NCBI GenBank assembly: GCA_903885965.1
Contig: CAISKQ010000045.1
Location: forward strand, 1-32,308
Direction of reading: 5' to 3'
DNA: 32,308 bases
Source: an uncultured bacterium
GTDB taxonomy: Bacteria; Patescibacteriota; Minisyncoccia; Moranbacterales; GWC2-37-73
This document shows, piece after piece, positions 8,930 to 27,236 of this stretch (its first letter is position 1; every line of letters begins with the position of its first letter). The translations under genes were made by a program, and so were the position numbers. The notes under the pieces are model-generated. The model was not told where the DNA came from. It saw only the letters and a program-made list of their open reading frames with translations, and made no database searches.

Positions 8930-9787
8930 ATGTCTACAGAAAATACTAACAACCTAGAAATAAGCCACGAGTCCACTCTTTTCGCCGAACCGATTTTGCA
9001 TGTGGGAAATTTCACCATCACCAATTCGCTCATCATGAGTTGGATCACGGTAGTTATTTTGGTGACTTTTTTTGTGTTGGTTGGCAAAGCTGCTAAGCAG
9101 AAAAAGCGCAAGAAGGCCAAGCATGTTGCACCGACAGGCATTGTGAATTTTTTTGAAATTATTCTTGAGCAAGCTTTGAATATGGCCGACTCTGTCACTG
9201 GTGACCGCAAAAAAACTTTGAAACTCTTTCCAATTGTTTTTGCCTTGTTTCTTTTTATTTTGGTCAGCAATTGGATGGGACTTTTCCCGGGCGTAGGTAC
9301 AATTGGTTTCGTGGAAGCCGGCGAGCATGGAAAAGTTTTTGTGCCACTTTTGCGTGGGGCGACGGCAGATCTCAACACCACCTTGGCCATTGGACTTTTT
9401 GCAGTTGTAATGTCGCATGTTGTTGGCGTGGTCACAGTTGGCGCTTGGAATCATTTCAACAAGTTTATTAACCTAAAAGCGATTTTGGAAATTCCCAAAA
9501 AGATCAAACAAGATCCTATGATTCTCATGATCAACCCAATCAAAATATTCGTGGGACTGATAGAGGTGATTGGGGAAGTTGCCAAGGTGGCATCACTCAG
9601 TCTTCGACTTTTTGGCAATGTTTTTGCGGGAGAAGTTTTAATTGCTTCAATGATGGCACTTTCTGCTTTTATTCTGCCGCTGCCGTTTATGTTTTTGGAA
9701 TTGATCGTGGGAATTGTTCAAGCATTGGTATTTGCGATTTTGACGCTGGCATTTATGAGTATTGCGACGATTGCGGAAGAACATTGA
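8930..9787 (+). CDS. atpB: F0F1 ATP synthase subunit a
   Basis: LSLRLFGNVFAGEVLI with the conserved Arg; position in atp operon. Terminates with TGA. Confidence 0.96.
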   Translation: MSTENTNNLEISHESTLFAEPILHVGNFTITNSLIMSWITVVILVTFFVLVGKAAKQKKRKKAKHVAPTGIVNFFEIILEQALNMADSVTGDRKKTLKLFPIVFALFLFILVSNWMGLFPGVGTIGFVEAGEHGKVFVPLLRGATADLNTTLAIGLFAVVMSHVVGVVTVGAWNHFNKFINLKAILEIPKKIKQDPMILMINPIKIFVGLIEVIGEVAKVASLSLRLFGNVFAGEVLIASMMALSAFILPLPFMFLELIVGIVQALVFAILTLAFMSIATIAEEH

Positions 9788-9860
9788 TACATTGTTATAT
9801 TGATACATTGATACATTGCTAAATTTATTAACAATTTAACAATGTAACCATGTGACAATT
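9786..9860. repeat. ACATTGTTA/TAACAATGT palindromic repeat, copy 1
   Basis: gatacattgttatattgatacattgatacattg...aacaatttaacaatgtaaccatgtgacaa. Confidence 0.75.
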
Positions 9861-9919
9861 AATTAATAATTTAGGTATACACTATTCATCCTCCCCACAG
9901 AGAGAGAAAGTATGAATAA

Positions 9920-10150
<231 letters not shown>

Positions 10151-10223
10151 AGTTTCTTCTTGGCATTTCATTTTTAATTATGGGGTGCCAGAATAGAAAC
10201 TTTATAGTACAAGAAAGTAAAAT

Positions 10224-10309
10224 TGTTACATTGTTATATTGCTACATTGTTAGTGTGTTGCAGTATTGCATTTTAACAATGTAACCATGTAACAATATAA
10301 CAGTGTAAA
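10224..10309. repeat. ACATTGTTA/TAACAATGT palindromic repeat, copy 2
   Basis: gttacattgttatattgctacattgttag...ttaacaatgtaaccatgtaacaatataacagtg, ending 3 bp before atpF. Confidence 0.78.
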
Positions 10310-10312
10310 ATT

Positions 10313-10804
10313 ATGGAAGAACTTATCAAAACTTTTCACATCGACCTTAAACTTATCATTGCGCAGTTGGTTAACTTCGGCATTGTGCTGTTTGTGCTGA
10401 AGCGCTATGCTTATGGTCCGGTGCTGAAAATGATGCAGGAACGTACGGACAAAATTGAAAAAGGCATGGCGGATGCGGAAAGCGCTGGCAAAAAGATTTT
10501 GGAAATTGCGGAAAAAGAAAAGCAGGTTTTGATTGAGGCGCGCAAGCAAGCTCAGGAAATCGTTACCAAAGCCGAAGAGATTGCCAAGAAAAACAAGGAG
10601 GAAATCATTACCGAAGCGAAGAATCAATCCGAAAAAATTCTGTCAGATTCGGCCAAGAAAATCGAGCAAGAAAAAAATCAGATGATGCAGGAAGTCAAAG
10701 GTCAAATCGCCGAGTTGGTGATTGCCGCGACCGGGAAAGTGATTGGAGAGAAGATGGATGAAGAAAAAGATGCGCAACTCATTAAAAATGCGATTGAAAA
10801 ATAA
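10313..10804 (+). CDS. atpF: F0F1 ATP synthase subunit b
   Basis: N-terminal TM followed by charged coiled coil; operon position. Confidence 0.93.
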   Translation: MEELIKTFHIDLKLIIAQLVNFGIVLFVLKRYAYGPVLKMMQERTDKIEKGMADAESAGKKILEIAEKEKQVLIEARKQAQEIVTKAEEIAKKNKEEIITEAKNQSEKILSDSAKKIEQEKNQMMQEVKGQIAELVIAATGKVIGEKMDEEKDAQLIKNAIEK

Positions 10805-10831
10805 TTTTATATGTCGCCTCGAATTTAAATG

Positions 10832-10918
10832 TGTCATCCTGAACTTGTTTCAGGATCTCGCACGCAGCAAATTAACTGAAATAAAGAAAGCAGATTCTGA
10901 AACAAGTTCAGAATGACA
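10832..10918. repeat. 87-bp CTGAACTTGTTTCAG inverted repeat, copy A
   Basis: TGTCATCCTGAACTTGTTTCAGGATCT ... AGATTCTGAAACAAGTTCAGAATGACA. Confidence 0.93.
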
Positions 10919-10924
10919 GAACTT

Positions 10925-11326
10925 ATGAAAATTTCAACCCTACAATATGCCAGCACACTTTTTGATCTTACAGAGAATAAATCTCAAGAAGAAGTTTTGG
11001 ATGTGGTTTCAAAATTTGCCGAGCAGCTCAAAAAAGATGGGCAACTCAAAAACGCTGACAAGATTATGGAAAAATTTTCTGATTTGTATAATAGTAAAAA
11101 TGGAATAGTTGTGACAGAAGTCTGCGTTCGCAGAGATGTGTCACAAGATGTTTTGAAAGAAATCGAAGATTTTGTGCAAAGAAAATATGGTGCGAAAAAG
11201 GTTGAACTGAAAATTGTGACGGATGAAAACATTAAAGGCGGCATTGTGATCAGAGTCGGAGACGAAGTTATGGATGCGAGTGTGGGAGGACAGTTGGAGA
11301 AGTTGAGAAAGGTTTTAGTAAAATAA
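10925..11326 (+). CDS. atpH: F0F1 ATP synthase subunit delta
   Basis: MKISTLQYASTLFDL...; C-terminal DENIKGGIVIRVGDEVMDASVGGQLEKLR. An alternative start at 10913 lies inside repeat copy A. Confidence 0.93.
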   Translation: MKISTLQYASTLFDLTENKSQEEVLDVVSKFAEQLKKDGQLKNADKIMEKFSDLYNSKNGIVVTEVCVRRDVSQDVLKEIEDFVQRKYGAKKVELKIVTDENIKGGIVIRVGDEVMDASVGGQLEKLRKVLVK

Positions 11327-11392
11327 TCAGAACCACTGATTATCACCTGATTTTTATGATTACACTAAGATAAAAAAGAAAATATGTCATGC

Positions 11393-11479
11393 TGTCATGC
11401 TGAACTTGTTTCAGCATCTCTATTGCAGGCAGTATTATGAGACAAAGAAAGTAGATTCTGAAACAAGTTCAGAATGACA
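11393..11479. repeat. 87-bp CTGAACTTGTTTCAG inverted repeat, copy B
   Basis: TGTCATGCTGAACTTGTTTCAGCATCT ... AGATTCTGAAACAAGTTCAGAATGACA. Confidence 0.93.
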
Positions 11480-11561
11480 CAAGAGAGAAATTCAAATACG
11501 CAATTCAGCTTTCAATTTGAAAAAATTAAATGCTGATAGCAGATTTGAAAAAATGGGTGGA

Positions 11562-11603
11562 TAAAAAAACATCCAACTATTCCCCAAAAGGATAATTGGA
11601 TGT
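11562..11603 (-). terminator. Intrinsic terminator for the antisense gene 11621-11863
   Basis: ACATCCAA...TTGGATGT stem; on the minus strand it is followed by TTTTTTAT. Confidence 0.7.
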
Positions 11604-11620
11604 AATGCATGTCGTTTAGG

Positions 11621-11863
11621 CTATGCATTAATGCGAATCACATCTTCATTAGATATTTTACCTAATGGGACTCTAGTTCCAAGGGTACCAGATTTGACAG
11701 TTTGAATTGCAATTAAAGGATAGTCGTCTGCCGAGACTCTTTCAAAAGATTCTTTAACCCAGAGCATTCGATAAAGAGGTGCTGGTTCCTTTTGTTTGAC
11801 GTCTTTAGTAAAGATAAAAAAATCACCATGTTGTAACTCTTGTATTTTGACATTGTTTTCCAT
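11621..11863 (-). CDS. Hypothetical 80-aa protein, antisense within the atp operon
   Basis: ORF with its own terminator; MENNVKIQELQHGDFFIFTKDVKQKEPAPLYRM...; no recognised family. Confidence 0.6.
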   Translation of the reverse strand: MENNVKIQELQHGDFFIFTKDVKQKEPAPLYRMLWVKESFERVSADDYPLIAIQTVKSGTLGTRVPLGKISNEDVIRINA

Positions 11864-12077
11864 AGTGGCCCCCGTTCGTTGTCAAGGTTGATGTTTACTG
11901 AAATTCGTTGATTTTTACTAACTTTAAATTGTACTCCCAAAACCCAATTTTGTCAAGCACCCACCCGAAGTGGAATATCGTAGCGGAGAGGATATCGAAA
12001 TTCTTGCTCTGTTCATGGCCCAGGAAAGCCACGGATGGAGGAGGAGGTTCGAAAAAAATTGTCACAATAAAAAAATA

Positions 12078-12164
12078 TTTCATGCTGAACTTGTTTCAGC
12101 ATCTCGGTTACGAGCAGTGTTGTGAGACAAAGAAAGTAGATTCTGAAATAAATTCAGAATGACA
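12078..12164. repeat. CTGAACTTGTTTCAG inverted repeat, copy C
   Basis: TTCATGCTGAACTTGTTTCAGCATCTCGG...AGATTCTGAAATAAATTCAGAATGACA. Confidence 0.9.
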
Positions 12165-12256
12165 AGCTCCCATTTATAGATTTGTAGCAGATTTGTATAT
12201 TTGTGGGGATAATTAGTATATTTGTAAAGGATTAGTAATTTAGTGGGGAATAAAAG
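12165..12256. repeat. Leader segment duplicated upstream of atpA (matches 15473-15557)
   Basis: agctcccattta/gtagatttgtagcagatttgtatatttgtgggg.taattagtatat.. shared almost verbatim. Confidence 0.92.
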
Positions 12257-12287
12257 AAATAAATTTAACTAAACTTAAATAAACATT

Positions 12288-13835
12288 ATGAATAAAGATT
12301 TTATCGTCGAGCAATTGAAAAAACAAATTGAAGGTTTCAAGAATGAAGTGTCAACTGAAAAAGTTGGCAAGGTGATTGAGGTGGGAGATGGGATTGCCAG
12401 AATTTCTGGACTGTCCGATTTGATGGCCAGCGAAATGGTTGAATTTCAAACATCACAGAAAAACACAGAAGGCGACGGAACGACACAGAAAAACGGAAGC
12501 GTTTTTGGGGTTGCACTTAATTTGGAGGAGGATAGAATCGGAGCGATGATCCTTGGCGACTATACAGGAATCAAGGAAAGCGATGAAGTGCGGGCCACCG
12601 GCAAAGTTTTGTCGATTCCGGTTTCAGACAAAATGATTGGCCGTGTGATTAATCCTTTGGGAATTCCAGTCGATGGCAAAGGTGACATTTTGGCTGAGAA
12701 ATTTTATCCTGTCGAAAAAATTGCGCCAGGTGTGATCACACGAAAATCAGTGCATCAACCAGTGCAAACTGGCATTAAAGCGATTGACGCGATGATTCCG
12801 ATTGGACGCGGACAGCGTGAACTGATTATTGGTGACCGCCAAACTGGCAAGACTGCCATTGCGGTGGACACTATCATCAACCAAAAAGGTCAGAACATGA
12901 AATGCATCTATGTTGCGATTGGTCAAAAGGAAAGCAAGATTGCTCGCATCGTGGGCGAACTTGAAAAGAAAGGCGCCATGGAATACACCACCATCATTGT
13001 GGCTGGAGCCTCAGACAGTGCGGCACTTTCTTTTATTGCCCCATATTCAGGTTGCGCTTTGGGAGAATATTTCATGGACAAAGGAGAAGATGTGTTGGTG
13101 GTTTTTGATGACCTTTCTCGTCATGCTTGGGCTTATCGTCAGGTCTCTTTGATTTTAAAACGACCACCAGGACGTGAAGCTTATCCTGGGGATGTTTTCT
13201 ATTTACATTCTCGACTATTGGAAAGAAGTGCTAAACTCAATGAAGATTTCGGCGGCGGCTCAATGACGGCTTTGCCGATTATTGAAACTCAGGCTGGCGA
13301 CGTTTCAGCCTACATTCCAACTAACGTGATTTCCATCACTGATGGCCAAATCTTTTTGGAATCAGATTTGTTCTACAAAGGCATTCGTCCAGCGGTGAAC
13401 GTGGGACTTTCCGTTTCTCGCGTGGGGGGCTCAGCGCAAATTAAAGCGATGAAAAAAGTGGCTGGCAAAATTCGTTTGGAATTGGCGCAGTTTCGTGAGC
13501 TTGAAGCCTTTGCCCAATTCGGCTCAGACCTGGATGAAAAAACTCGCGCTCAAATCGAACGTGGAAGAAGATCAGTGGAAATTCTCAAACAAGGACAATA
13601 CCAGCCAATGGCAGTTGAGCATCAAGTTGCGATTTTGTATGCTTTGACTAATGGCTATGTGGACGACGTGGAAGTTTCCGAGGTTCGCAATTGGGAAAAA
13701 GATTTTCACAAATATCTCGATTCATCCGCCAAAGAAGTTGTCACTCTGATTGCCGAAAAGAAAGAATTGTCAGATGAAGTGGTGGCAGCGTTGGAGAAAG
13801 CAATTCTTGATTATAAAGATATCTATGCTAAATAA
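12288..13835 (+). CDS. atpA: F0F1 ATP synthase subunit alpha
   Basis: GDRQTGKT Walker [52 protein letters not shown]. Confidence 0.98.
12447..12503. repeat. In-frame CACAGA-type repeat insertion in atpA
   Basis: caaacatcacagaaaaacacagaaggcgacggaacgacacagaaaaacgg encodes [18 protein letters not shown] between EMVEF and [10 protein letters not shown]. Confidence 0.7.
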
Positions 13836-13870
13836 GTTTGTTTTGTTTGCTTAAGGTAATCTCAAACTGA

Positions 13871-13966
13871 TGAACGCGGATGATTGACGGATAAACACTA
13901 ATCACGGATGATTCTTAATAATAAATCCGTGATCCGTGAAAATCAGTAATAAATTCGTGTAAATCT
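13871..13966. repeat. Intergenic ATCCGTG/CACGGAT palindromic repeat upstream of atpG
   Basis: gatgaacgcggatgattgacggataaacactaatcacggatgatt...aaatccgtgatccgtgaaaatcagtaataaattcgtgtaaatctg. Confidence 0.8.
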
Positions 13967-13976
13967 GTAAATATAT

Positions 13977-14969
13977 ATGGCCTCCTCTCTAGACATCAAA
14001 CGTAGAATCAGATCGATAAATTCCACCAAAAAAATCACCAAAGCAATGGAGATGGTTTCGGCTGCCAAAATGCGCCGAGCTGTTTCGAGTGTGCTAGCAA
14101 TCAGGCCCTATGCTCATGCAGCGTGGAGCGTGCTGACAAATTTGTCCAAAGCCTTCGAAGAATTTTCAGGGCATGGTTTTTTGGAAATTCGGCCCGTGAA
14201 AAACGTGTTGATGATTGTGGTGACTTCAAACCGCGGACTTTGCGGATCATTTAACACTCAAATTGCCAAAAAAATCAGAGAAGAAATTGCTAACCCGGAA
14301 AAATTAACAATTAATAGGATCGGTGTAAGGAAAATCGAATCCTTGGGGACTAAATCCCCAATTGGGGACTTAGTCCCCAAGGATTCTCGCGACCTAAAAA
14401 TCGATTTTATTACGATTGGGAAAAAAGGTGAGGCGATGGTGAGAAAATTAAACAAAGAAATTATTGCTACCTTTCCGGACGGGGCTGATTTTTCAGTTGC
14501 CAATGACATCAAGCCTCTTTCAAAAATTGTGATGGATGCGTATTTGGCCAAAAAATATGACAAAGTTGTGGTGATTTATACTGACTATGTCAGCGCCGTG
14601 ACGCAGCAAACTCGGATTCGTCAAATTTTGCCGATTTCGAAAATCGACATTGAAAAACAAATTGCCGAAATGGATGTGGTGGCCAAAGAATATGGACTCG
14701 TCGAACCAAAAGTGGAATATAAGATTGAGCCAAGTCCGCAGGAAGTTTTGGAATTCATTTTTCCGCGTCTGATTGAGATGCAACTTTTCCATGGCGTGTT
14801 GGAATCAGCTGCTTCTGAACACAGCGCTCGCATGGTGGCCATGAAAAGCGCCACTGATGCTGCCGGCGAAATGTCCGAAGATTTGACGTTGGCATACAAT
14901 CAAATCAGACAAGGAAAGATCACACAAGAAATTGCTGAGATTAGTGCGGGACGGGCAGCGTTGGAATAA
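13977..14969 (+). CDS. atpG: F0F1 ATP synthase subunit gamma
   Basis: DIKRRIRSINSTKKITKAMEMVSAAKMRRA; C-terminal AYNQIRQGKITQEIAEISAGRAAL. Confidence 0.97.
   Translation: MASSLDIKRRIRSINSTKKITKAMEMVSAAKMRRAVSSVLAIRPYAHAAWSVLTNLSKAFEEFSGHGFLEIRPVKNVLMIVVTSNRGLCGSFNTQIAKKIREEIANPEKLTINRIGVRKIESLGTKSPIGDLVPKDSRDLKIDFITIGKKGEAMVRKLNKEIIATFPDGADFSVANDIKPLSKIVMDAYLAKKYDKVVVIYTDYVSAVTQQTRIRQILPISKIDIEKQIAEMDVVAKEYGLVEPKVEYKIEPSPQEVLEFIFPRLIEMQLFHGVLESAASEHSARMVAMKSATDAAGEMSEDLTLAYNQIRQGKITQEIAEISAGRAALE
14337..14386. repeat. 50-bp near-perfect palindromic element inserted in frame in atpG
   Basis: GAATCCTTGGGGACTAAATCCCCAATTGGGGACTTAGTCCCCAAGGATTC; encodes SLGTKSPIGDLVPKDS. Confidence 0.94.
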
Positions 14970-14977
14970 AATAAGGA

Positions 14978-15071
14978 TGTCATCCTGAATTTATTTCAGG
15001 AATCTTGGTTACTGGTAGTATTTTGTGAGGCTAAGGAATCAGATGCTGAAACAAGTTCAGCAAGCATGACA
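14978..15071. repeat. CTGAACTTGTTTCAG-family inverted repeat, copy D
   Basis: TGTCATCCTGAATTTATTTCAGGAATCT...AGATGCTGAAACAAGTTCAGCAAGCATGACA. Confidence 0.9.
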
Positions 15072-15082
15072 AGAAAAAAAAT

Positions 15083-15379
15083 ATGAAACAGTATTGTGTT
15101 TATATTACGACAAACAGAGAAAACAAAGTTTTATATATTGGAGTGACGAGTAATTTGTCAAAAAGAATTTATGAACACAAGAATAAACTAGTTGAGGGTT
15201 TTACTGAGAAATATAATGTTGATAAGTTGGTTTATTTCGAACAAACTGAAAATGTGCAAAGCGCTTTGAGGAGAGAAAAACAATTGAAAAATTGGCACAG
15301 AAATTGGAAGATAAATTTAATAAACAGTTTTAATCCACAATGGAAAGAATTGACCGGTACTTTATTGGACAGTGAATAA
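15083..15379 (+). CDS. GIY-YIG nuclease superfamily protein
   Basis: CVYITTNRENKVLYIGVTSNLSKRIYEHKNKLVEGFTEKYNVDKLVYFEQ...REKQLKNWHRNWKINLI: single-domain GIY-YIG. Confidence 0.9.
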   Translation: MKQYCVYITTNRENKVLYIGVTSNLSKRIYEHKNKLVEGFTEKYNVDKLVYFEQTENVQSALRREKQLKNWHRNWKINLINSFNPQWKELTGTLLDSE

Positions 15380-15385
15380 AAATTT

Positions 15386-15472
15386 TGTCATCCTGAACTT
15401 GTTTCAGGATCTCGGTTACGGGCAGCATTGTTAACCAAAGAAAGTAGATTCTGAAACAAGTTCAGAATGACA
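15386..15472. repeat. 87-bp CTGAACTTGTTTCAG inverted repeat, copy E
   Basis: TGTCATCCTGAACTTGTTTCAGGATCTCGG...AGATTCTGAAACAAGTTCAGAATGACA. Confidence 0.93.
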
Positions 15473-17107
<1,635 letters not shown>

Positions 17108-17164
17108 GCAATAAGAATGTGGAAAAAGTTTTGAGTAATAAAAAAATAAAAATAAAATTAATTT

Positions 17165-17593
17165 ATGGAAAGCGCAGGGAAAGAATTTTTGTATAAAGAA
17201 TTGAGTTATAAGATAGTTGGTCTTTGTATGGAAATTCAAAAAGAATATGGAAATTTTCACCGGGAAAGTATTTACCATAATGTGTTAAAAGAAAAGCTCG
17301 AAAAAGAAAATATTATTCACCTGTCAAAGCCTATGGTAAAAGTTTTTTCCAAGGAAACTGGTAATAAGCTAGGTTATTATGTGCCTGATTTTCTTGTTGA
17401 AAATCAAATCATGGTTGAATTAAAAGCTAAGCCGGTGGTTTTCAAATGTGATGAGATTCAACTTTCTGAATATATAAAGACTACGCAATACGAAGTTGGT
17501 TATTTGATTAATTTTGGTGTGATGCCACTTTATTTTAAAAGAATTATTTACACTAACGATAAAAAAAATTTATTATTAAGCGCCAAAAATTAA
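17165..17593 (+). CDS. GxxExxY-like protein (PD-(D/E)XK nuclease-like fold)
   Basis: LSYKIVGLCMEIQKEYGNFHRESIYHNVLKEKLEKE...GYYVPDFLVENQIMVELKAK: PD...ExK-like core. Confidence 0.85.
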   Translation: MESAGKEFLYKELSYKIVGLCMEIQKEYGNFHRESIYHNVLKEKLEKENIIHLSKPMVKVFSKETGNKLGYYVPDFLVENQIMVELKAKPVVFKCDEIQLSEYIKTTQYEVGYLINFGVMPLYFKRIIYTNDKKNLLLSAKN

Positions 17594-17647
17594 CAGTATT
17601 TTTCTGTGTTTCTGTGTCGTTCTGTTAATTTCTGTGTTTATCTGTTT
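17594..17647. repeat. CACAGAT-type repeat, inverted orientation, right of the GxxExxY gene
   Basis: cagtatttttctgtgtttctgtgtcgttctgttaatttctgtgtttatctgttt. Confidence 0.75.
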
Positions 17648-18082
17648 ATGCAAAAAATAAAGTTCAAGATTGTTACTCCCGAAAAAACTCTTTTTGAGCA
17701 GGAGATTGAGCAAATCACACTGCCGGTTTCGGATGGGCAAGTGACCATTCTGCCTGGTCATCGTAGCTATATTGCATCCCTGAAACCAGGTGAAATCATG
17801 TTTAAAACTGATGACAAAGAAACTGCCATGGCAACTTCAGGCGGCTTTATTGAATTTAACAACAATGAATTGGTGGTGTTGGCTGACACAGCGGAAGCAG
17901 CTGGAGAAATTGATTTGCAAAGAGCGGAGCAGGCAGTCAAAAGAGCGCAAGAGTTGAAGAATGAAAAAGTTTCTCTGAGTGAGCAAGAATATGCTCGCGT
18001 GGCGGCGGCTATCGAAAGAGAGTCAGCCCGCATCCGCGTGGCCAAGAAACATCATAATAAACATAATATTAAAATAGACTAA
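17648..18082 (+). CDS. atpC: F0F1 ATP synthase subunit epsilon
   Basis: MQKIKFKIVTPEKTLFEQEIEQITLPVSDGQVTILPGH; the ATG at 17648 is preferred to 17606, which reads through the repeat. Confidence 0.95.
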   Translation: MQKIKFKIVTPEKTLFEQEIEQITLPVSDGQVTILPGHRSYIASLKPGEIMFKTDDKETAMATSGGFIEFNNNELVVLADTAEAAGEIDLQRAEQAVKRAQELKNEKVSLSEQEYARVAAAIERESARIRVAKKHHNKHNIKID

Positions 18083-18358: not shown

Positions 18359-18901
18359 ATGAAATCTCTTCAATTGCTAAAAATCTTGTTTTTTGGACCT
18401 AGGGTTACAGAGGATGCTAAAAAAATGAGAGAATTTGCCGAGGATGCTACTTTTGAAGAGGTTGGCAAGGAAGTTGCAGCTATCGTGAAGAAGCTGTACG
18501 GTGGCAAATCACTGCGTATTCGAGCGGTTGATGGTGGCTCGAGTAATGCTGAGGAAATTGAATTGACAGCCCTAAATAATGCTTATTATGATATTGACCG
18601 TTTTGGTCTTTCTTTTGTGGCATCTCCACGACATGCGGATATGCTTTTTGTGACTGGACCGATTACGCGAAACTTGGAAACTGCTGTGCGCACAACTTAT
18701 GAAGCTGCTCCACGACCTTGCATTGTTGTGGCAGTTGGGGATGGTGCTTGTGACGGCGGAATCTGGAAAGATTCATATGCGATTGTTGGCGGTGTTGAGA
18801 AGGTGATTCCGGTTGATATAAAAATCCCAGGAGATCCTCCGACGCCTACGGAAATTTTACGTGGTATTTTGCACGCCCTTAAACAGCAAGAAATTAAATA
18901 A
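18359..18901 (+). CDS. NuoB/group-4 [NiFe] hydrogenase small-subunit-like protein lacking [4Fe-4S] ligand cysteines
   Basis: GLSFVASPRHADMLFVTGPITRNLETAVRTTYEAAP...DSYAIVGGVEKVIPVDIKIPGDPPTPTEIL is diagnostic; ligand positions substituted. Confidence 0.9.
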   Translation: MKSLQLLKILFFGPRVTEDAKKMREFAEDATFEEVGKEVAAIVKKLYGGKSLRIRAVDGGSSNAEEIELTALNNAYYDIDRFGLSFVASPRHADMLFVTGPITRNLETAVRTTYEAAPRPCIVVAVGDGACDGGIWKDSYAIVGGVEKVIPVDIKIPGDPPTPTEILRGILHALKQQEIK

Positions 18902-18906
18902 ATCTT

Positions 18907-20910
18907 ATGACAATAAATTTTATAGCTTACGGAGTTTTTGCTTATTTTTTGGGACTAGTTTTTTCAGGTTGTTTTGCGTTAATAGGAGGTCAATGGAAAA
19001 AATCAGTGCAACTTTTTGTGCTTTCAAATGTGATTGGTTTTGCTACTGGTGTCTTTTTCTTGTCTGGCTTTGCATCAAAACAGCTGGTGTTGGCAAATGT
19101 AGATTGGTTCTTTCAATTTTCGCCAACTCTTAATTTGCTTTCGGCAATCTTCTTTACGTTTATTAGTCTTGTTTCTGCTTTGGTTGGCGTGTATAGTTTG
19201 AGGTACCTGGAATTATATAAAGAAACTTATAGTCCTGCGGTGACGCAATTTTTGATAACAGTATTTGTTTTCGGAATGCAGGGCGTCCTTTTTGCGAATA
19301 ATACTTTTTCGTTTTTATTTTTGTGGGAAATAATGTCTATCTCATCATTTTTCTTGGTTTTTGCTGATAGAAAAGAGGAATCTCTGAAGGCGGCTTTCTT
19401 TTATTTTGTAATGACTCACCTTGGCGCGTCGGCAATCTTGGGCGGCTTTTTGATTTTAGGCAATGGGTCGCTGCTATTTAATTTTTCAAATATCGCAACA
19501 GCTTCGCAAAATCTTTCGCCAACTTTGGAGGCGACAGCTTTTCTTTTATTTTTGTTTGGTTTTGGCAGCAAGGCGGGACTGGTTCCATTTCATGTTTGGC
19601 TTCCAGAAGCTCATCCTGAAGCGCCAAGCAATGTTTCCGCTTTGATGTCTGGATTGATGCTTAAGGTCGCCGTGTATGGTTTTATTAAAATAGTATTTGC
19701 TTTTGCTGGACTTCCGAGTTGGGCAGGACTAACTGTCATTGTGCTTGGTTTGTTGTCTGGAGTTGTGGGAGCTTTGCATGCTGTGATTGAGCGAGATATT
19801 AAGCGCGCTTTTGCTTTCAGTAGTATTGAGAATATTGGAATTATTTTCACAATGTTGGGAACATCGCTTTATCTTTTTGAGCAAAGCAATGCTGCAGGCT
19901 CTTTGGCAATTGCCAATATAATCTTGGTCTTTGCAATTTTTCATGCTGGCAGTCACGCGTTTTTCAAAACGGCACTTTTCTTGAGCAGTGGCGTCGTGAT
20001 TAATCGTTTTCATAGTCGAAGTCTTGAGACCATGGGAGGTCTTGCGAAAATTATGCCTGTTTTTTCATTCGCATTTTTGCTAGCCATTATTGGTTCGTTG
20101 CCGCTTCCGCCCTTTGGAACTTTCTATGGGGAATGGGGATTTATTCAGAATGTTGTTACAATTTTGCATAATTCAAATCTAGGAACCAACGTGGCAATTG
20201 TGATGGTGGTAACTCTTTCATTTGCGGGACTCATTAGCGGTTTGGCGATTTTTGCGATGGTGAAGGTTTTTGGGATTTCAATGTTGGGGCTTGCTCGCAA
20301 TAAACACGTTGACAATAGTGGTGAGAAAAAAGATTTCTTGCTTAGCTTGCCGATAATGACGCTTGCCTTGGGAACCTTGCTTTTGGGAGTTTTTGCAAGA
20401 AATATTATTAGTTTCTTAAATTCAAATGCAAGTCTTCTGACGGGTAATTTTACTGATGGCAATTATTTTGCAGGGAGTCGACTTTCTTCGGTGGCAGTGT
20501 TTGTTTTCCCAATAGTTGTTCTTGCTGGTCTGTATTTGCTGTATAGTTATTTTAAAAAGGATGTTTCAGAAAGAGTATATCGAACGTGGGATTGCGGACA
20601 GCCTATTGATGAAACAATGGAATATAGCGCCACGGCTTTTTCGGCGCCGATTCGTTTTTTCTTTTTGCAATTAATCAAGCGCAATAAAAAGTTACAATCT
20701 GCACCAGTTGTCGAAACTAATCCTTGGATTCGCAAGTATGCCTTTTCTTTGTCTTTTGATTCGATTTGGAAGGAGAAATTGTATCAGCCAATTATTTTTA
20801 TTTTGGAATTTATTGCTGAGAGAGTGAAGGTGATTCAGGGTGGTCGCATTCAATATTATTTGCTTTTCGTGCTTGGCACTTTAATTGTTACATTAATCAT
20901 ATTTTTATAA
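18907..20910 (+). CDS. hyfB: HyfB/NuoL-like antiporter-type membrane subunit
   Basis: FLWEIMSISSFFLVF, GFGSKAGLVPFHVWLPEAHPEAPSNVSALMSGLMLKVAVYG, HAGSHAFFKTALFLSSG, C-terminal YRTWDCGQ. Confidence 0.88.
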   Translation: MTINFIAYGVFAYFLGLVFSGCFALIGGQWKKSVQLFVLSNVIGFATGVFFLSGFASKQLVLANVDWFFQFSPTLNLLSAIFFTFISLVSALVGVYSLRYLELYKETYSPAVTQFLITVFVFGMQGVLFANNTFSFLFLWEIMSISSFFLVFADRKEESLKAAFFYFVMTHLGASAILGGFLILGNGSLLFNFSNIATASQNLSPTLEATAFLLFLFGFGSKAGLVPFHVWLPEAHPEAPSNVSALMSGLMLKVAVYGFIKIVFAFAGLPSWAGLTVIVLGLLSGVVGALHAVIERDIKRAFAFSSIENIGIIFTMLGTSLYLFEQSNAAGSLAIANIILVFAIFHAGSHAFFKTALFLSSGVVINRFHSRSLETMGGLAKIMPVFSFAFLLAIIGSLPLPPFGTFYGEWGFIQNVVTILHNSNLGTNVAIVMVVTLSFAGLISGLAIFAMVKVFGISMLGLARNKHVDNSGEKKDFLLSLPIMTLALGTLLLGVFARNIISFLNSNASLLTGNFTDGNYFAGSRLSSVAVFVFPIVVLAGLYLLYSYFKKDVSERVYRTWDCGQPIDETMEYSATAFSAPIRFFFLQLIKRNKKLQSAPVVETNPWIRKYAFSLSFDSIWKEKLYQPIIFILEFIAERVKVIQGGRIQYYLLFVLGTLIVTLIIFL

Positions 20911-20959: not shown

Positions 20960-22555
20960 ATGAGTCCAATATTAGCAACATTATTACAAGCTATCTTTAT
21001 TCTTGCTATTGCGCCATTAGCAACCGGCATAGTTAAGTTTTGCAAAGCTCGTCTTCAGGGTCGCCACGGAGCTTCACCTTTTTTACCTTATTACACTTTT
21101 GCAACTTTACTAAAAAAGGAGATGGTGATTTCGGATGTTACTTCTTGGGTTTTCCGAGTGGTTCCATTTGTTGTGCTTGCAAGTTCTGTAATTTTAGCGT
21201 TTGTGTTGCCACTTCTTTTTGTGGGAGGAAAACTTGCAAGTCTTAGTGATTTTCTTTTCGTAGCTGGGATTTTAACAATTGGTTCAATTTTTCTTGTTTT
21301 GGGTGGACTTGATACGGGCAGCGCTTTCGGTGGTATGGGTTCTAGTCGGGAAATGACTATTGCTGCTCTTATTGAGCCGACTATTATTATGGTTTTTGCT
21401 GCAATAAGTTTTGTGAGTGGCACATTTGCAATTGATGGAATGGTTAGCCAGTCACTGATCTTTGCTCATCCATATTTGGTTCTTTCAATTTTTGCTTTTT
21501 TCTTGGTTACCTTAGCTGAGAATGCGCGCTATCCAGTTGATAACCCAGCAACACATCTTGAATTAACCATGGTTCATGAAGCGATGATTTTAGAATACTC
21601 TGGTCCATATTTGGCGATGCTTGAATACGCCAGCGCGATTAAACTGACAGTTTTTGCAATCTTGCTGGTAAATCTTATTTTTCCCACGACTATTTTGACG
21701 GTTGTTGGTTTTGGTTTTTTTGCTGCGGTAGTTTCAATTATCTTTGGGGGCCTGAAGGTTGTCGTCATGATGGGACTGCTAGCTCTTTTAGAGTCAACTG
21801 TCGTTAAGATGCGATTTTATCGTATGCAGGAATATATGTCGATTGCTTTTTTCACTGCTCTGGCTGGAATGCTGATTGCGCTTTTTTCTTCTTTTCTTAA
21901 AGTTAATATTGAATACCATACGATTTTTGGAGCACTTGCGGTTTTCTTCGTAGTGCTGCTCTTTGGTCGTGCTCGAAGTTATGCGATGGTGCGGTATTAC
22001 GCCCTTTCCTCGCTTTCAATTGCTGGCATTGCTCTTGGCCTATCTTTTCTACCTGGGGCAGAAAAAGAGCACTTGTGGATTTTTGCAGCAGTAATGGTTT
22101 TAATTAAAGTGATAATGGTTCCATCGGTAATCAGGTATGCACAAAAAAAACATAAGGATTTGATTAGTGCTCCGTCATTTTTGAAACCAGCCTCGAGTTA
22201 TTTTGTGATCGTAGCTATTCTTGGCGTGACATTCTTCATTATGCAGCACACTCCGATTGTGGGTATTGTTGAGTTTGACACCTTACTGTACGTTTCAATT
22301 GCGCTTATTGGAATTGGACTGGCTACGATGATTGTGCATCGAAATATTTTGTCGCAAATCCTGGGATTGTTGACCATGGAAAATGGGGTTACGGTGTTTA
22401 CCTTAGTCACCGTTAAATCATTGCCGCTCGTGATTGAGCTTGGCGTGTTTGTTATTATCATTGTAAGCTCGTTTATTTTGTCGATTTTAGGGGCAAGAAT
22501 TCGAGAATTTTATGGTTCGTCTGATACGGAAGAACTTCGCAGTTTAACTGAATAG
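20960..22555 (+). CDS. HyfC(NuoH-like)-HyfE(NuoK-like) fusion membrane subunit
   Basis: N-terminal ENARYPVDNPATHLELTMVHEAMILEYSG (HyfC/NuoH); C-terminal SQILGLLTMENGVTVFTLVTVKSLPLVIELGVFV (HyfE). Confidence 0.85.
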   Translation: MSPILATLLQAIFILAIAPLATGIVKFCKARLQGRHGASPFLPYYTFATLLKKEMVISDVTSWVFRVVPFVVLASSVILAFVLPLLFVGGKLASLSDFLFVAGILTIGSIFLVLGGLDTGSAFGGMGSSREMTIAALIEPTIIMVFAAISFVSGTFAIDGMVSQSLIFAHPYLVLSIFAFFLVTLAENARYPVDNPATHLELTMVHEAMILEYSGPYLAMLEYASAIKLTVFAILLVNLIFPTTILTVVGFGFFAAVVSIIFGGLKVVVMMGLLALLESTVVKMRFYRMQEYMSIAFFTALAGMLIALFSSFLKVNIEYHTIFGALAVFFVVLLFGRARSYAMVRYYALSSLSIAGIALGLSFLPGAEKEHLWIFAAVMVLIKVIMVPSVIRYAQKKHKDLISAPSFLKPASSYFVIVAILGVTFFIMQHTPIVGIVEFDTLLYVSIALIGIGLATMIVHRNILSQILGLLTMENGVTVFTLVTVKSLPLVIELGVFVIIIVSSFILSILGARIREFYGSSDTEELRSLTE

Positions 22556-22609: not shown

Positions 22610-24085
22610 ATGACTCCAATTATTACAATTATCTTTACTCTTGCAGGTTCAGCTGGCGCAATTTTTTTGAAAAAAGAAAAACATATTTTGCTTAGCACGT
22701 GGATATTTGCGCTGCTGGGCAGTCTTTCGGTTTTTGCAATTTCATTTCCGGTTTTACTTAACGTTGCGGGGAGTTGGCATGATTCAATTTGGCTTCTGGA
22801 TGGCTTTTCAGCCTTGATGGCAACATTAGTGGCCTTTGTGTATTTGATGGCGACACTTGTTAGTGTGCGTTACATCGGGCATGAATATAAGGAAAAAATC
22901 ATTACATTGGCTGATTTAAAATTGTATTTTTCACTACTGCATCTTTTTGCACTTTGCATGGTTATTACTGTCTTGGCTAATAATTCATTGCTTTTATGGA
23001 TGGCTTTTGAGGGCACAACTCTTTCTTCAACATTTTTGGTCGGACTTTATCGCAAGAAAACTTCGGTTGAAGCAGCTTGGAAATATATCATTATTTGTTC
23101 AACAGGAATAAGCTTGGGGCTCTTGGGAATTTTGCTTTTTAGTTATGGAACATCTATTGGCGGACTCAAGGGGGAAGGCATCTTTACTTTGACCTCACTT
23201 TTTCAAAACGCGCATCTGATTTCGCCTGAAATCGTGAAATGGGCTTTTGTATTCTTGTTTATTGGTTTTGGCGCAAAGCTTGGCTTGGTGCCAATGCATA
23301 TTTGGTTGCCAGATGCACACAGTAATGCGCCTTCACCGATTTCCGGTTTGTTTTCTGGAATCCTGCTAAACATTGCGCTTTATGGTATTATTCGTTTTCG
23401 TTTTATCACTGACCTGGCACTTGGCAGCAGCACTTGGACTGGGCGGCTTTTTCTATTTTTTGGTTTCGTTTCAATTTTAGTGCCAGCACTAATGATGCTT
23501 GTGCAGACAAATTATAAGCGCATGTTGGCATATTCAAGTGTTGAACACATGGGTTTGATAAATTTTGCATTGGCACTTTCACCTTTTGGAATTTTAGCTG
23601 CAGTTATTCATATGATTGGGCACACACTAACCAAGTCGATGTTATTTTTTGGCGCAGGAGAAATTTTGATTAACTATAAAACCACGCAAACGCAGCAAGT
23701 GAAAGGATTACTCAAAAAAGCCCCTTACACGGCAGTCCTTTTTATGCTTGGCATTCTGGCAATCGTTGCGCTGCCGCCTTCAATTTTGTTTGTGAGTGAG
23801 TATACGATCTTTACGGCGGCTTTTGTGCTTCATCCGGTTTTGGCTCTTTGTGTTTTTCTGGCTTTGAGTGTCATTGCTTATGCAATGCTTCGCTCAACTG
23901 TTGATATGTTTTTTGCTCCAGCTGAAAATGAATCAGAGCTTAAAAAAGAAAAATGGAACGTCACGCACTGGGTGATGACTTTGCAGTTGGTTTTGATTGT
24001 GGGTCTGACTTTCTTTTTTTCTTCGAGCAACGGCTTTGCTTTTATTGATTCAATTGCTAAAAATACGATTTATATAAGTAGGTAA
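22610..24085 (+). CDS. hyfF: HyfF/NuoN-like antiporter-type membrane subunit
   Basis: LLLWMAFEGTTLSSTFLVGLYRKKTSVEAAWKYIIICSTGISLGLLGILLF; GFGAKLGLVPMHIWLPDAHSNAPSPISGLFSG. Confidence 0.88.
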   Translation: MTPIITIIFTLAGSAGAIFLKKEKHILLSTWIFALLGSLSVFAISFPVLLNVAGSWHDSIWLLDGFSALMATLVAFVYLMATLVSVRYIGHEYKEKIITLADLKLYFSLLHLFALCMVITVLANNSLLLWMAFEGTTLSSTFLVGLYRKKTSVEAAWKYIIICSTGISLGLLGILLFSYGTSIGGLKGEGIFTLTSLFQNAHLISPEIVKWAFVFLFIGFGAKLGLVPMHIWLPDAHSNAPSPISGLFSGILLNIALYGIIRFRFITDLALGSSTWTGRLFLFFGFVSILVPALMMLVQTNYKRMLAYSSVEHMGLINFALALSPFGILAAVIHMIGHTLTKSMLFFGAGEILINYKTTQTQQVKGLLKKAPYTAVLFMLGILAIVALPPSILFVSEYTIFTAAFVLHPVLALCVFLALSVIAYAMLRSTVDMFFAPAENESELKKEKWNVTHWVMTLQLVLIVGLTFFFSSSNGFAFIDSIAKNTIYISR

Positions 24086-24282: not shown

Positions 24283-25863
24283 ATGAACTATAAAAATATA
24301 ATTATGAACATTATTGATATTCTCAAAAATTTTTCGCAGATTCAAGTGATTGATCAAAAAGGTGACACTGTTTTCGCTTCGGTCCAGCGGGAAAACTTGG
24401 CCTATGTGACAACGATTTTAGTCAGTGAATATGGGCTTAGTCTGTCATCGCTTTTTGGCAGTGACAATCGAAAGGAAAATCAAACTTTCGGTGTACATGT
24501 GATTTTTGGCAATGACTCAGCGCAGCAATGGCTCAAACTTTCAACCTCAGTTCCCGCTAGTGATCCGCAATATCCCTCAATCACTAAAACCGTCATGGCC
24601 GCTCATTGGTATGAACGCTATTTGCAAGACATGTTTGGCGTGGTTGCCAAAGGGCATCCAGATCCAAGACGCTTAGTCAATCATGAAAACATTCCAGTGG
24701 GAACTTTTCCTTTGCGGAAAGATTTTGCACTGAACGCAAAACTTGAAAAAGCCAGTGTTCCTTATCCAATGCATCATGTGGCAGGAGAAGGAATTTTTGA
24801 AATTCCGGTTGGGCCGATTCATGCTGGCATCATTGAGCCGGGACATTTTCGTTTCAATGTGGCTGGCGAAAGAATTTTGACTTTGGAGGGGAAACTTTTT
24901 TTCACCCACAAGGGAGTGGAAAAATTGCTGGAAGGAAAAACGGTTGAGCAAGCGTTGCCATTTATTGAGCGACTTTCAGGCGATATGGCTGCAGCGCACG
25001 GCCTGGCTTTTGCGCAAGCGGCTGAAAAAATTGCGGCTTGCCAAGTTTCATCGCGCGCCGAGCATTTGCGAACCTTGGTTTGCGAACTGGAAAGAATCAC
25101 TATGCATATTCATGACCTGGCTAATATTGGCGGGATGGGAACTGGGTATTCTTTCATTGCAGCTAATGGTTTTCGCATCAAAGAGCGAATGATGCGACTT
25201 TCCGGTATCATTTTTGGTAATCGTTTTTGGCGAGGTTTTGTTATTCCTGGCGGGGTTTCATTTGATATTGATAATCATAAGTTGGAAAAAATTCTTTTGA
25301 TTTCCAAAGATGCTTGCGATGAGATGCAAAAAATTGTCGCTCAAGCCTTGGCTTCGGATGGATTTTTGGATCGCTTGCAAACCACGGGAGTGCTGCCCTT
25401 GGAAGCAGCTAAGGCTTTTGGCGCCCTTGGCATCGCAGCGCGCGGTTCCGGACTTGATCGCGACATTCGCCGAGATCATCCGCACGGCGCTTACAAGGAA
25501 TATCCAATCGAAGTTGCCAGCGAGAGCAAGGGCGACGTCCACTCAAGATATTTAGTGAGAATTCAAGAGCTGAAAACTTCCCTGGCCTTGATTGAAAAAA
25601 TTGTCAAAAATATTCCCGCGGGAGAAATCAAAACTGCTTTTGAAATTAAGGATGGTTTTGCTTTGGGTGCGGTTGAATCTTGGCGCGGAGAAATTTTGTG
25701 CGCGCTGGAAATCAAAAACGGAGTGATTGAGAGATGTTTTCCTCGCGATCCGTCTTTTTGCAATTGGGCACTTTTTGGAATCATGGGACCGGGTAACATT
25801 GTGCCGGATTTCCCCCTTATTAATAAATCTTTGAATCTAAGTTACTCGGGAACAGATCTTTAA
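24283..25863 (+). CDS. NuoCD/group-4 hydrogenase large-subunit-like protein lacking [NiFe] ligand cysteines
   Basis: N-terminal 30-kDa-like domain (AAHWYERYLQDMFGVVAKGHPDPRRLV); PVGPIHAGIIEPGHFRF; RLSGDMAAAHGLAFAQAAE; C-terminal NLSYSGTDL. Start may be 24304. Confidence 0.88.
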   Translation: MNYKNIIMNIIDILKNFSQIQVIDQKGDTVFASVQRENLAYVTTILVSEYGLSLSSLFGSDNRKENQTFGVHVIFGNDSAQQWLKLSTSVPASDPQYPSITKTVMAAHWYERYLQDMFGVVAKGHPDPRRLVNHENIPVGTFPLRKDFALNAKLEKASVPYPMHHVAGEGIFEIPVGPIHAGIIEPGHFRFNVAGERILTLEGKLFFTHKGVEKLLEGKTVEQALPFIERLSGDMAAAHGLAFAQAAEKIAACQVSSRAEHLRTLVCELERITMHIHDLANIGGMGTGYSFIAANGFRIKERMMRLSGIIFGNRFWRGFVIPGGVSFDIDNHKLEKILLISKDACDEMQKIVAQALASDGFLDRLQTTGVLPLEAAKAFGALGIAARGSGLDRDIRRDHPHGAYKEYPIEVASESKGDVHSRYLVRIQELKTSLALIEKIVKNIPAGEIKTAFEIKDGFALGAVESWRGEILCALEIKNGVIERCFPRDPSFCNWALFGIMGPGNIVPDFPLINKSLNLSYSGTDL

Positions 25864-26282: not shown

Positions 26283-27236
26283 ATGAGTAAAATAAAAAAA
26301 CTCCCAAGGGCGCTGGATGGTAAAATTATTGGTCCAGCTCACCACTTCGCTTTCAAAGACGTACACACCTGTAGCTCGATAGTGGCCATGCCTCCAAATT
26401 TTCAGTTTACAAAAGTAATTTTGCATTTTGTAGAAATGTGTTTTGGTCTTATAGCTTATGATGCTTTTGCTATTCCTTCTTTTTCCGAAAAACTTGAACA
26501 ACAAAGTGAAACTGTTTTTCAAACCTTAAACATTGCTGATAAGAGTCATGAAATAGAAAAAATTTTCATCTTTCAAACTAGTAACGCACATGAGGCAGAT
26601 AGGAAAATGAGTTTTAGTGATATGGCTACTCAGGACAGTTATCATATCAGAGGGCTGTTGAAATCCTATGAGCTGATAGCGGCAAGATATCCTCGTATGA
26701 AAGTTTTTTTGTTTTATATCACTCTTTCGGAAGATCTTGAGAATTTAATTATAACTGAAATTATTCCCGGAAAGCCAAGTCAAGTTCGTTTGTTTGCAAA
26801 CTATATGTTTAAGGGTATATACAGTTGCGAGACTGCATTAGTGAGATGTATTGAATTCAGGACTCGAAAAGCAGACAAATCCTTGGTGCGTAATTATTTT
26901 GGTTTTGATACCTTCGGACTCATAGGCCTTCCTGGAGCGTCAAAGAGATTCCTGGAAGGAAGTGAATCAGCCTGGCAGTCTATAAGATCTGCTTGCAACA
27001 CTGATGGATGCAAAGAGCTGATAGTAGTGCATCATTCTGATTGCGGGGCTTATAAAGGTGTCGCAAATTTTAATGGTGACCAAGTCGAAGAGGAGATTAT
27101 GCATAGGAAGGAAATGGAAAAATTTGCGGATTTAGTTTATTCGAGATATCCAAAAATTAAAGTAATTCCAGTCTATGCAAGAATTGATTTTGAAGAAGCA
27201 ACGATTGAGTATGTTTTAATTGATCGTTTCAATTGA
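26283..27236 (+). CDS. Tandem-duplicated beta-carbonic-anhydrase-like protein; only the C-terminal half keeps Zn-ligand motifs
   Basis: C-half CIEFRTR...FDTFGLIGLPGA...IVVHHSDCGAYKG; N-half has parallel FGLIAYDAFAIPSFSEKL...IFIFQTSNAHEAD...ARYPRMKVFLFYITLSED. Confidence 0.65.
   Translation: MSKIKKLPRALDGKIIGPAHHFAFKDVHTCSSIVAMPPNFQFTKVILHFVEMCFGLIAYDAFAIPSFSEKLEQQSETVFQTLNIADKSHEIEKIFIFQTSNAHEADRKMSFSDMATQDSYHIRGLLKSYELIAARYPRMKVFLFYITLSEDLENLIITEIIPGKPSQVRLFANYMFKGIYSCETALVRCIEFRTRKADKSLVRNYFGFDTFGLIGLPGASKRFLEGSESAWQSIRSACNTDGCKELIVVHHSDCGAYKGVANFNGDQVEEEIMHRKEMEKFADLVYSRYPKIKVIPVYARIDFEEATIEYVLIDRFN

Follow-up and report, generated by a model that had tools for sequence, protein, structure and literature searches.

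What does a complex-I-like operon do once the cysteines that hold the proximal [4Fe-4S] cluster are gone from its small subunit? The link between the redox chemistry of complex I and ion pumping is a long-standing question, and a natural relative that keeps the checked channel and E-channel residues without redox centres would offer one half of complex I without the other, open to direct study. The window, by which we mean the whole 32,308-nucleotide stretch of DNA analysed, corresponds to contig C45 of a genome 1.27 Mb in size and 99.5% complete, with Moranbacteria, Uhrbacteria and other Parcubacteria as its named close relatives. On the + strand, an F1Fo-ATP synthase cluster is followed by a five-gene complex-I-like operon (in sequence: small subunit, HyfB, a HyfC+HyfE fusion, HyfF and HyfG/NuoCD) and then by a carbonic-anhydrase (CA)-like gene:

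8930–18082, +, F1Fo-ATP synthase gene cluster, atpB to atpC, directly upstream of the operon
9932–10150, +, atpE (c subunit), H+-type by its motifs
18359–18901, +, small subunit, NuoB/MbhJ/HyfI-like (PF01058), without the cluster cysteines
18542–18544, +, Ser62, ligand position 1
18551–18553, +, Glu65, ligand position 2 (Cys in one-Cys relatives)
18743–18745, +, Gly129, ligand position 3 (Asp in one-Cys relatives)
18767–18769, +, Lys137 (mostly Lys/Arg in ligand-poor relatives, mostly Gly in four-Cys relatives)
18833–18835, +, Asp159, ligand position 4 (D/N/E in every ligand-poor relative)
18907–20910, +, HyfB/NuoL-like antiporter subunit, channel residues conserved
20960–22555, +, HyfC/NuoH-like and HyfE/NuoK-like fused subunit, E-channel residues nearly invariant
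22610–24085, +, HyfF/NuoM-like antiporter subunit
24283–25863, +, HyfG/NuoCD-like large subunit without the NiFe CxxC motifs (ERLSGDMAAAHG, LSYSGTD)
26283–27236, +, beta-CA-like protein (Pro_CA_2, PF20393; CxExR ... HxxC), a possible partner, 420 bp from the operon

The ATP synthase cluster is interrupted by two small unrelated-looking ORFs (15083–15379 and 17165–17593), one of them GIY-YIG-nuclease-like by eye. A promoter and terminator scan returned sites no commoner than in shuffled sequence.

Ligand positions of the small subunit

The small subunit matches PF01058 (90 bits) and reads GS-S62-NA-E65-EIE ... GD-G129-A-C131-DGGI ... PG-D159-PPTPTE. A first-pass annotation of the window had proposed that all four proximal [4Fe-4S] ligand positions were lost, and profile alignment bears this out. 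The four cluster cysteines of MbhJ (6cfw_J, E=4e-36) fall exactly on S62, E65, G129 and D159, and those of FHL HycG (7z0s_G, E=5e-34) and of the aligned complex I subunits occupy the same columns; by these alignments the protein lacks both the N2 cluster ligands of complex I NuoB and the proximal [4Fe-4S] ligands of group 4 [NiFe] hydrogenase. No other cysteine of the subunit lies on any ligand column. The cysteine that the annotation had pointed out two residues past ligand 3 is present (Cys131), but it is Ile in sister genus g7 and C or I elsewhere; it is not conserved and so is no replacement ligand. The only other cysteine, C121, sits off the ligand positions. An assembly error as the source of the substitutions was ruled out, since the identical state recurs in independently assembled genomes.

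Among ligand-poor relatives the replacement residues vary (S/T/D/A, E/C/A/V/P/T, G/D and D/N/E at ligands 1–4), which argues against a conserved metal site; ligand 4 is acidic or amide in all of them. An alternative metal or nucleotide site, which the annotation had raised, may still exist but gained no support. Position 137 is often Lys/Arg in ligand-poor proteins but seldom so in four-Cys ones, which suggests that a salt bridge may form where the cluster was. The AlphaFold2 model (pLDDT 92.6) retains the NuoB/MbhJ fold, matching MbhJ with TMt 0.89 and rmsd 2.0 Å, in agreement with the earlier statement that the fold was kept.

Distribution and history of ligand loss

The small-subunit gene is carried by 33/131 genomes of the order. 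Ligands 1, 3 and 4 are absent in 30/30 aligned sequences of the order, and a few divergent ones have Cys at position 2. A scan of one genome per species yielded 571 confirmed relatives. Among the best 80 of these 571, together with other loci, only three states were seen: four Cys, one Cys (ligand 2) and none. The absence of two- and three-Cys intermediates from this set is suggestive only, and the state frequencies carry no meaning, given that the best 80 of 571 were sampled and one search pattern was biased towards the ligand-poor motif. Four-Cys members (GSCNGCELE...GDCA...PGCPP) belong to Proteobacteria, Nitrospira, Verrucomicrobia, Acidobacteria, Ignavibacteria and others; the ligand-poor members sampled are nearly all CPR, the loss being common to related CPR/Patescibacteria genomes. 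In a small-subunit tree of 130 columns, with the four ligand columns left out, 75 of 75 ligand-poor rows formed one group (SH-aLRT 91, not starred) within the four-Cys Ehr radiation.

The large subunits of ligand-poor and four-Cys Ehr both lack the NiFe ligands and carry replacement motifs common to the two classes. The simplest history is therefore one in which a hydrogenase gave rise to an Ehr without NiFe, and this in turn to a CPR Ehr without the proximal cluster.

For the small subunit, species pairs with usable dS give a dN/dS of 0.05–0.16, resembling ATP synthase subunits; across all subunits of the complex the range is ~0.04–0.20. The small-subunit gene is under purifying selection. 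The first-pass suggestion of selection for a cofactor-free role gains support from this strong constraint, from a single deep loss that persists throughout the CPR lineages sampled, from the intact predicted fold and from the fixation of an acidic or amide residue at ligand 4.

Several individual records deserve mention. Compared with genome G003 (L031), the large-subunit gene of the window (24283–25863) is 99% identical (dS 0.09) and the small subunit 90% (dS 0.96), which suggests recombination within the operon. A Cryobacterium isolate contig with 59% G+C (L096) bears a ligand-poor operon that groups with Parcubacteria, through contamination or transfer. A basal copy of the ligand-poor kind (D, A, D, N), in which the small-subunit gene closes the operon, occurs on an Aenigmatarchaeota-labelled contig (L062). 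Plasmid records include relatives at ~50% identity among the best matches listed; by host these appear to be of the four-Cys kind, with culturable Cupriavidus and Rhizobium among the candidates.

Membrane arm and proposed function

The first-pass annotation captured only part of the picture: the large subunit is also ligand-free, the operon contains no FeS relay or NADH module, and the channels are kept. The large subunit of the window lacks both NiFe CxxC motifs that a group 4 [NiFe] hydrogenase requires. Its AlphaFold2 model (pLDDT 86.9; loop 164–205 of low confidence) matches FHL HycE with TM 0.87. The operon lacks genes for NuoI- and NuoF-like subunits; NuoF (PF01512), and with it the NADH-module trait of complex I, is absent from the window genome, as is COX1, and no protein with two ferredoxin motifs is labelled in any retrieved locus. 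Antiporter-like HyfB and HyfF, which match Mrp and MbhH subunits, stand together with a NuoH-like membrane subunit in one operon. Across ~50 ligand-poor operons the channel residues of HyfB (E141, K222, H229, K253, H350, K354, E409) and HyfF (E134, K223, H230, K342) and the NuoH-like E-channel (R130, E131, E139, E187, D194, E201, E207, E222) are invariant or nearly so. Judged from its sequences, the whole complex, not the small subunit alone, looks redox-inert and without recognisable redox cofactors, although an electron route may run through an unlinked protein or another cofactor.

We therefore favour, with modest confidence, the reading that this Ehr-type relative of complex I is a redox-free ion-translocating machine coupled to the proton motive force: since the channel residues survive and no recognisable redox centre does, ion translocation driven by a gradient or a coupled non-redox reaction appears likeliest. 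The proposed path of H+ runs through HyfB, HyfF and the NuoH-like E-channel, with NuoB/NuoCD, free of cofactors, as a structural and coupling cap. An ion gradient or a coupled reaction (CO2 hydration, for example) would supply the energy in place of electron flow. The supports are ligand loss in both subunits, the missing redox modules, the channels, selection, the single clade, the folds, the ATP synthase linkage and the lack of other PF00361 proteins and of PF00999 exchangers in the window genome. The cavity residues of the large subunit and the exchangers found elsewhere in the order, both discussed below, weigh against it. Since metal sites are lost, the fold and the checked channel residues are kept, and ATP synthase and CA-like genes often adjoin, the complex of these tiny Patescibacteria probably moves ions without electrons.

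Among loci with enough flank, ATP synthase genes occur in 17/35 ligand-poor and 0/24 four-Cys loci (Fisher p=2e-5, a value that ignores kinship, the counts being non-independent through shared ancestry). At L080 the complex operon lies inside the ATP synthase operon. Gln and Ser-Thr are the motifs of Na+ c-rings. The c subunit of the window lacks both, so its ring is probably of the H+ type.

Two more specific versions of the redox-free ion machine can be distinguished. One, which we regard as possible but on the unlikely side, is a CO2/bicarbonate device in which proton flux would drive or tap CO2 hydration by a partner beta-CA, perhaps by analogy with DAB (a vectorial carbonic anhydrase driven by the proton motive force) or with the CO2-hydrating NDH-1 of cyanobacteria. 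DAB2 offers a precedent, pairing a NuoL-like with a beta-CA-like subunit (PMC13144422). Two beta-CA-like families, between which no homology was detected, recur beside the operon: Pro_CA_2 in five genomes (window, L032, L035, L042, L061) and a CsoSCA-related family at L031, L034, L037, L038, L042, L052 and L070. The CsoSCA-related family has an invariant C-D-R ... H ... C, matches CsoSCA structures (E=5e-13) and co-occurs with the complex across the order (11/18 carriers, p=5e-4). Its gene adjoins the complex in at least seven genomes and in several orientations, lying 114–198 bp upstream of the small subunit in G032, G105, G107 and G115 and downstream of the operon in others. Either family may occupy the same downstream slot in different species of two genera; in G032 and G112 the complex is distant from ATP synthase and a CA still adjoins it. 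No CA-motif ORF was found among 246 flanking ORFs of four-Cys loci.

Against this version, neither CA is fused to or placed inside the operon (the gap in the window is 420 bp), and the presence of Pro_CA_2 is uncorrelated with the complex across the order (p=0.8). Pro_CA_2 as a dedicated partner is weakened further by its short forms, which follow ATP synthase in many complex-free genomes, so that its link may be to ATP synthase. Co-occurrence tips the balance a little towards the CO2/bicarbonate device and away from a cation/proton antiporter, yet most ligand-poor loci have no adjacent CA. A fuller proposal, that a complex-I-like machine was rewired in CPR so that proton motive force and CO2 hydration by dedicated beta-CAs are coupled through the old redox arm and the E-channel, is more speculative still.

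Some features of the CA-like genes are recorded here in their own right. At L154–L183, Pro_CA_2 genes after the ATP synthase operon in genomes without the complex are mostly ~150 aa long; those beside the complex, including 26283–27236 of the window, are ~310 aa with an extra N-terminal half. CPR genes related to the carboxysome-shell CA lie at L042:7838–8893, L037:162–1199, L031:17149–18336 and L034:16474–17526. A 357-aa ORF near ATP synthase genes (L063:5561–6631) has a beta-CA-like CVDGR...HVGC and no Pfam carbonic anhydrase match; its membership in the CsoSCA-like family is unsupported beyond the motif.

The other version, likewise possible but on the unlikely side, is a monovalent cation/proton antiporter, Mrp-like with a cofactor-free cap, in which the proton gradient of ATP synthase would be converted into Na+/K+ export, or the reverse. 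It is consistent with the Mrp and MbhH matches and the kept channel residues of HyfB and HyfF, even though HyfB-type subunits serve H+-only complexes as well. The window genome has no PF00999 exchanger and just two PF00361 proteins, both in the operon, and in one clade (G073, G075, G079) the complex is directly preceded by a PF00999 Na+/H+ exchanger and a DedA-like gene. Across the order, however, PF00999 exchangers co-occur with the complex (14 shared) instead of alternating with it; the complex is not simply the cell's only antiporter, and its role as a functional replacement of Na+/H+ exchangers was rejected at that level. Nor was an MrpE/F/G-like part recognised, the search of the genome for Mrp-type subunits having covered PF00361 proteins.

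That the complex is still a redox enzyme, through an alternative metal, flavin or quinone site or by direct electron entry to the large subunit, is improbable. Acidic residues do occupy ligand positions, and the large-subunit cavity residues H180, E185, H188 and D234 (window numbering) are invariant or nearly so in both four-Cys and cluster-less Ehr, because of which small-molecule chemistry could persist in the cavity. The replacement residues nevertheless differ between relatives, and neither an FeS relay nor an NADH module is linked to the operon. A decaying relic or an assembly error is scarcely credible: loss of catalytic residues is typical of decay, but the low dN/dS, the full-length frames and the shared state of independent assemblies speak against both.

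As a redox-free ion machine, the complex would be a candidate partner in the membrane for the ATP synthase of Patescibacteria, in which electron transport chains are said to be missing (PMC7507113). Annotation by homology would call these genes NADH dehydrogenase or hydrogenase, and impossible respiration or H2 metabolism would be read from them.

Comparison with known systems

By homology and large-subunit traits, the complex is filed under Ehr, although it lacks the small-subunit cluster found in the other Ehr examined. It shares with four-Cys Ehr the homologous subunits B, C, E, F, G and S, similar channel residues, and the loss of NiFe ligands with the same replacement motifs (ISGD...LSYSGND). 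Four-Cys Ehr, by contrast, retain all four cluster cysteines, have mostly the order B-C-E-F-G-S where ligand-poor operons have S-B-C-E-F-G, and showed no ATP synthase or CA neighbour. In one four-Cys operon, from Ignavibacteriales, the genes for the large and small subunits flank that of a SulP-family transporter bearing STAS and PTS EIIA domains (L088:6320–8530); its presence in this single four-Cys operon led us to reject it as a general partner.

The CPR Ehr clade of Jaffe et al. 2020 (PMC7304191) almost certainly comprises the same complexes. That study, in passages on the large subunit and on H2, describes CPR Ehr large subunits as monophyletic and devoid of the metal-binding cysteines, and this half of the loss is therefore already known. 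To those passages the present analysis adds the loss in the small subunit, the one-Cys and zero-Cys states, the conserved channels and the neighbourhood of ATP synthase and CA genes. No description of small-subunit ligand loss was found in the literature searched, from which subscription journals were largely absent.

Among group 4 [NiFe] hydrogenases (FHL, hydrogenase 4, Mbh), HycE and MbhJ are the closest solved folds; the ligand-poor complex differs in having no NiFe site, proximal cluster or ferredoxin-like subunit. With DAB (DabA-DabB) it has in common NuoL-like proton-conducting subunits and beta-CA-like proteins encoded nearby. It differs in that the operon holds no DabA (PF10070; the CA-like neighbour at L070 matches this family at E=0.022 only), the CA-like genes belong to families of their own, and the complex retains its NuoH, NuoCD and NuoB parts.
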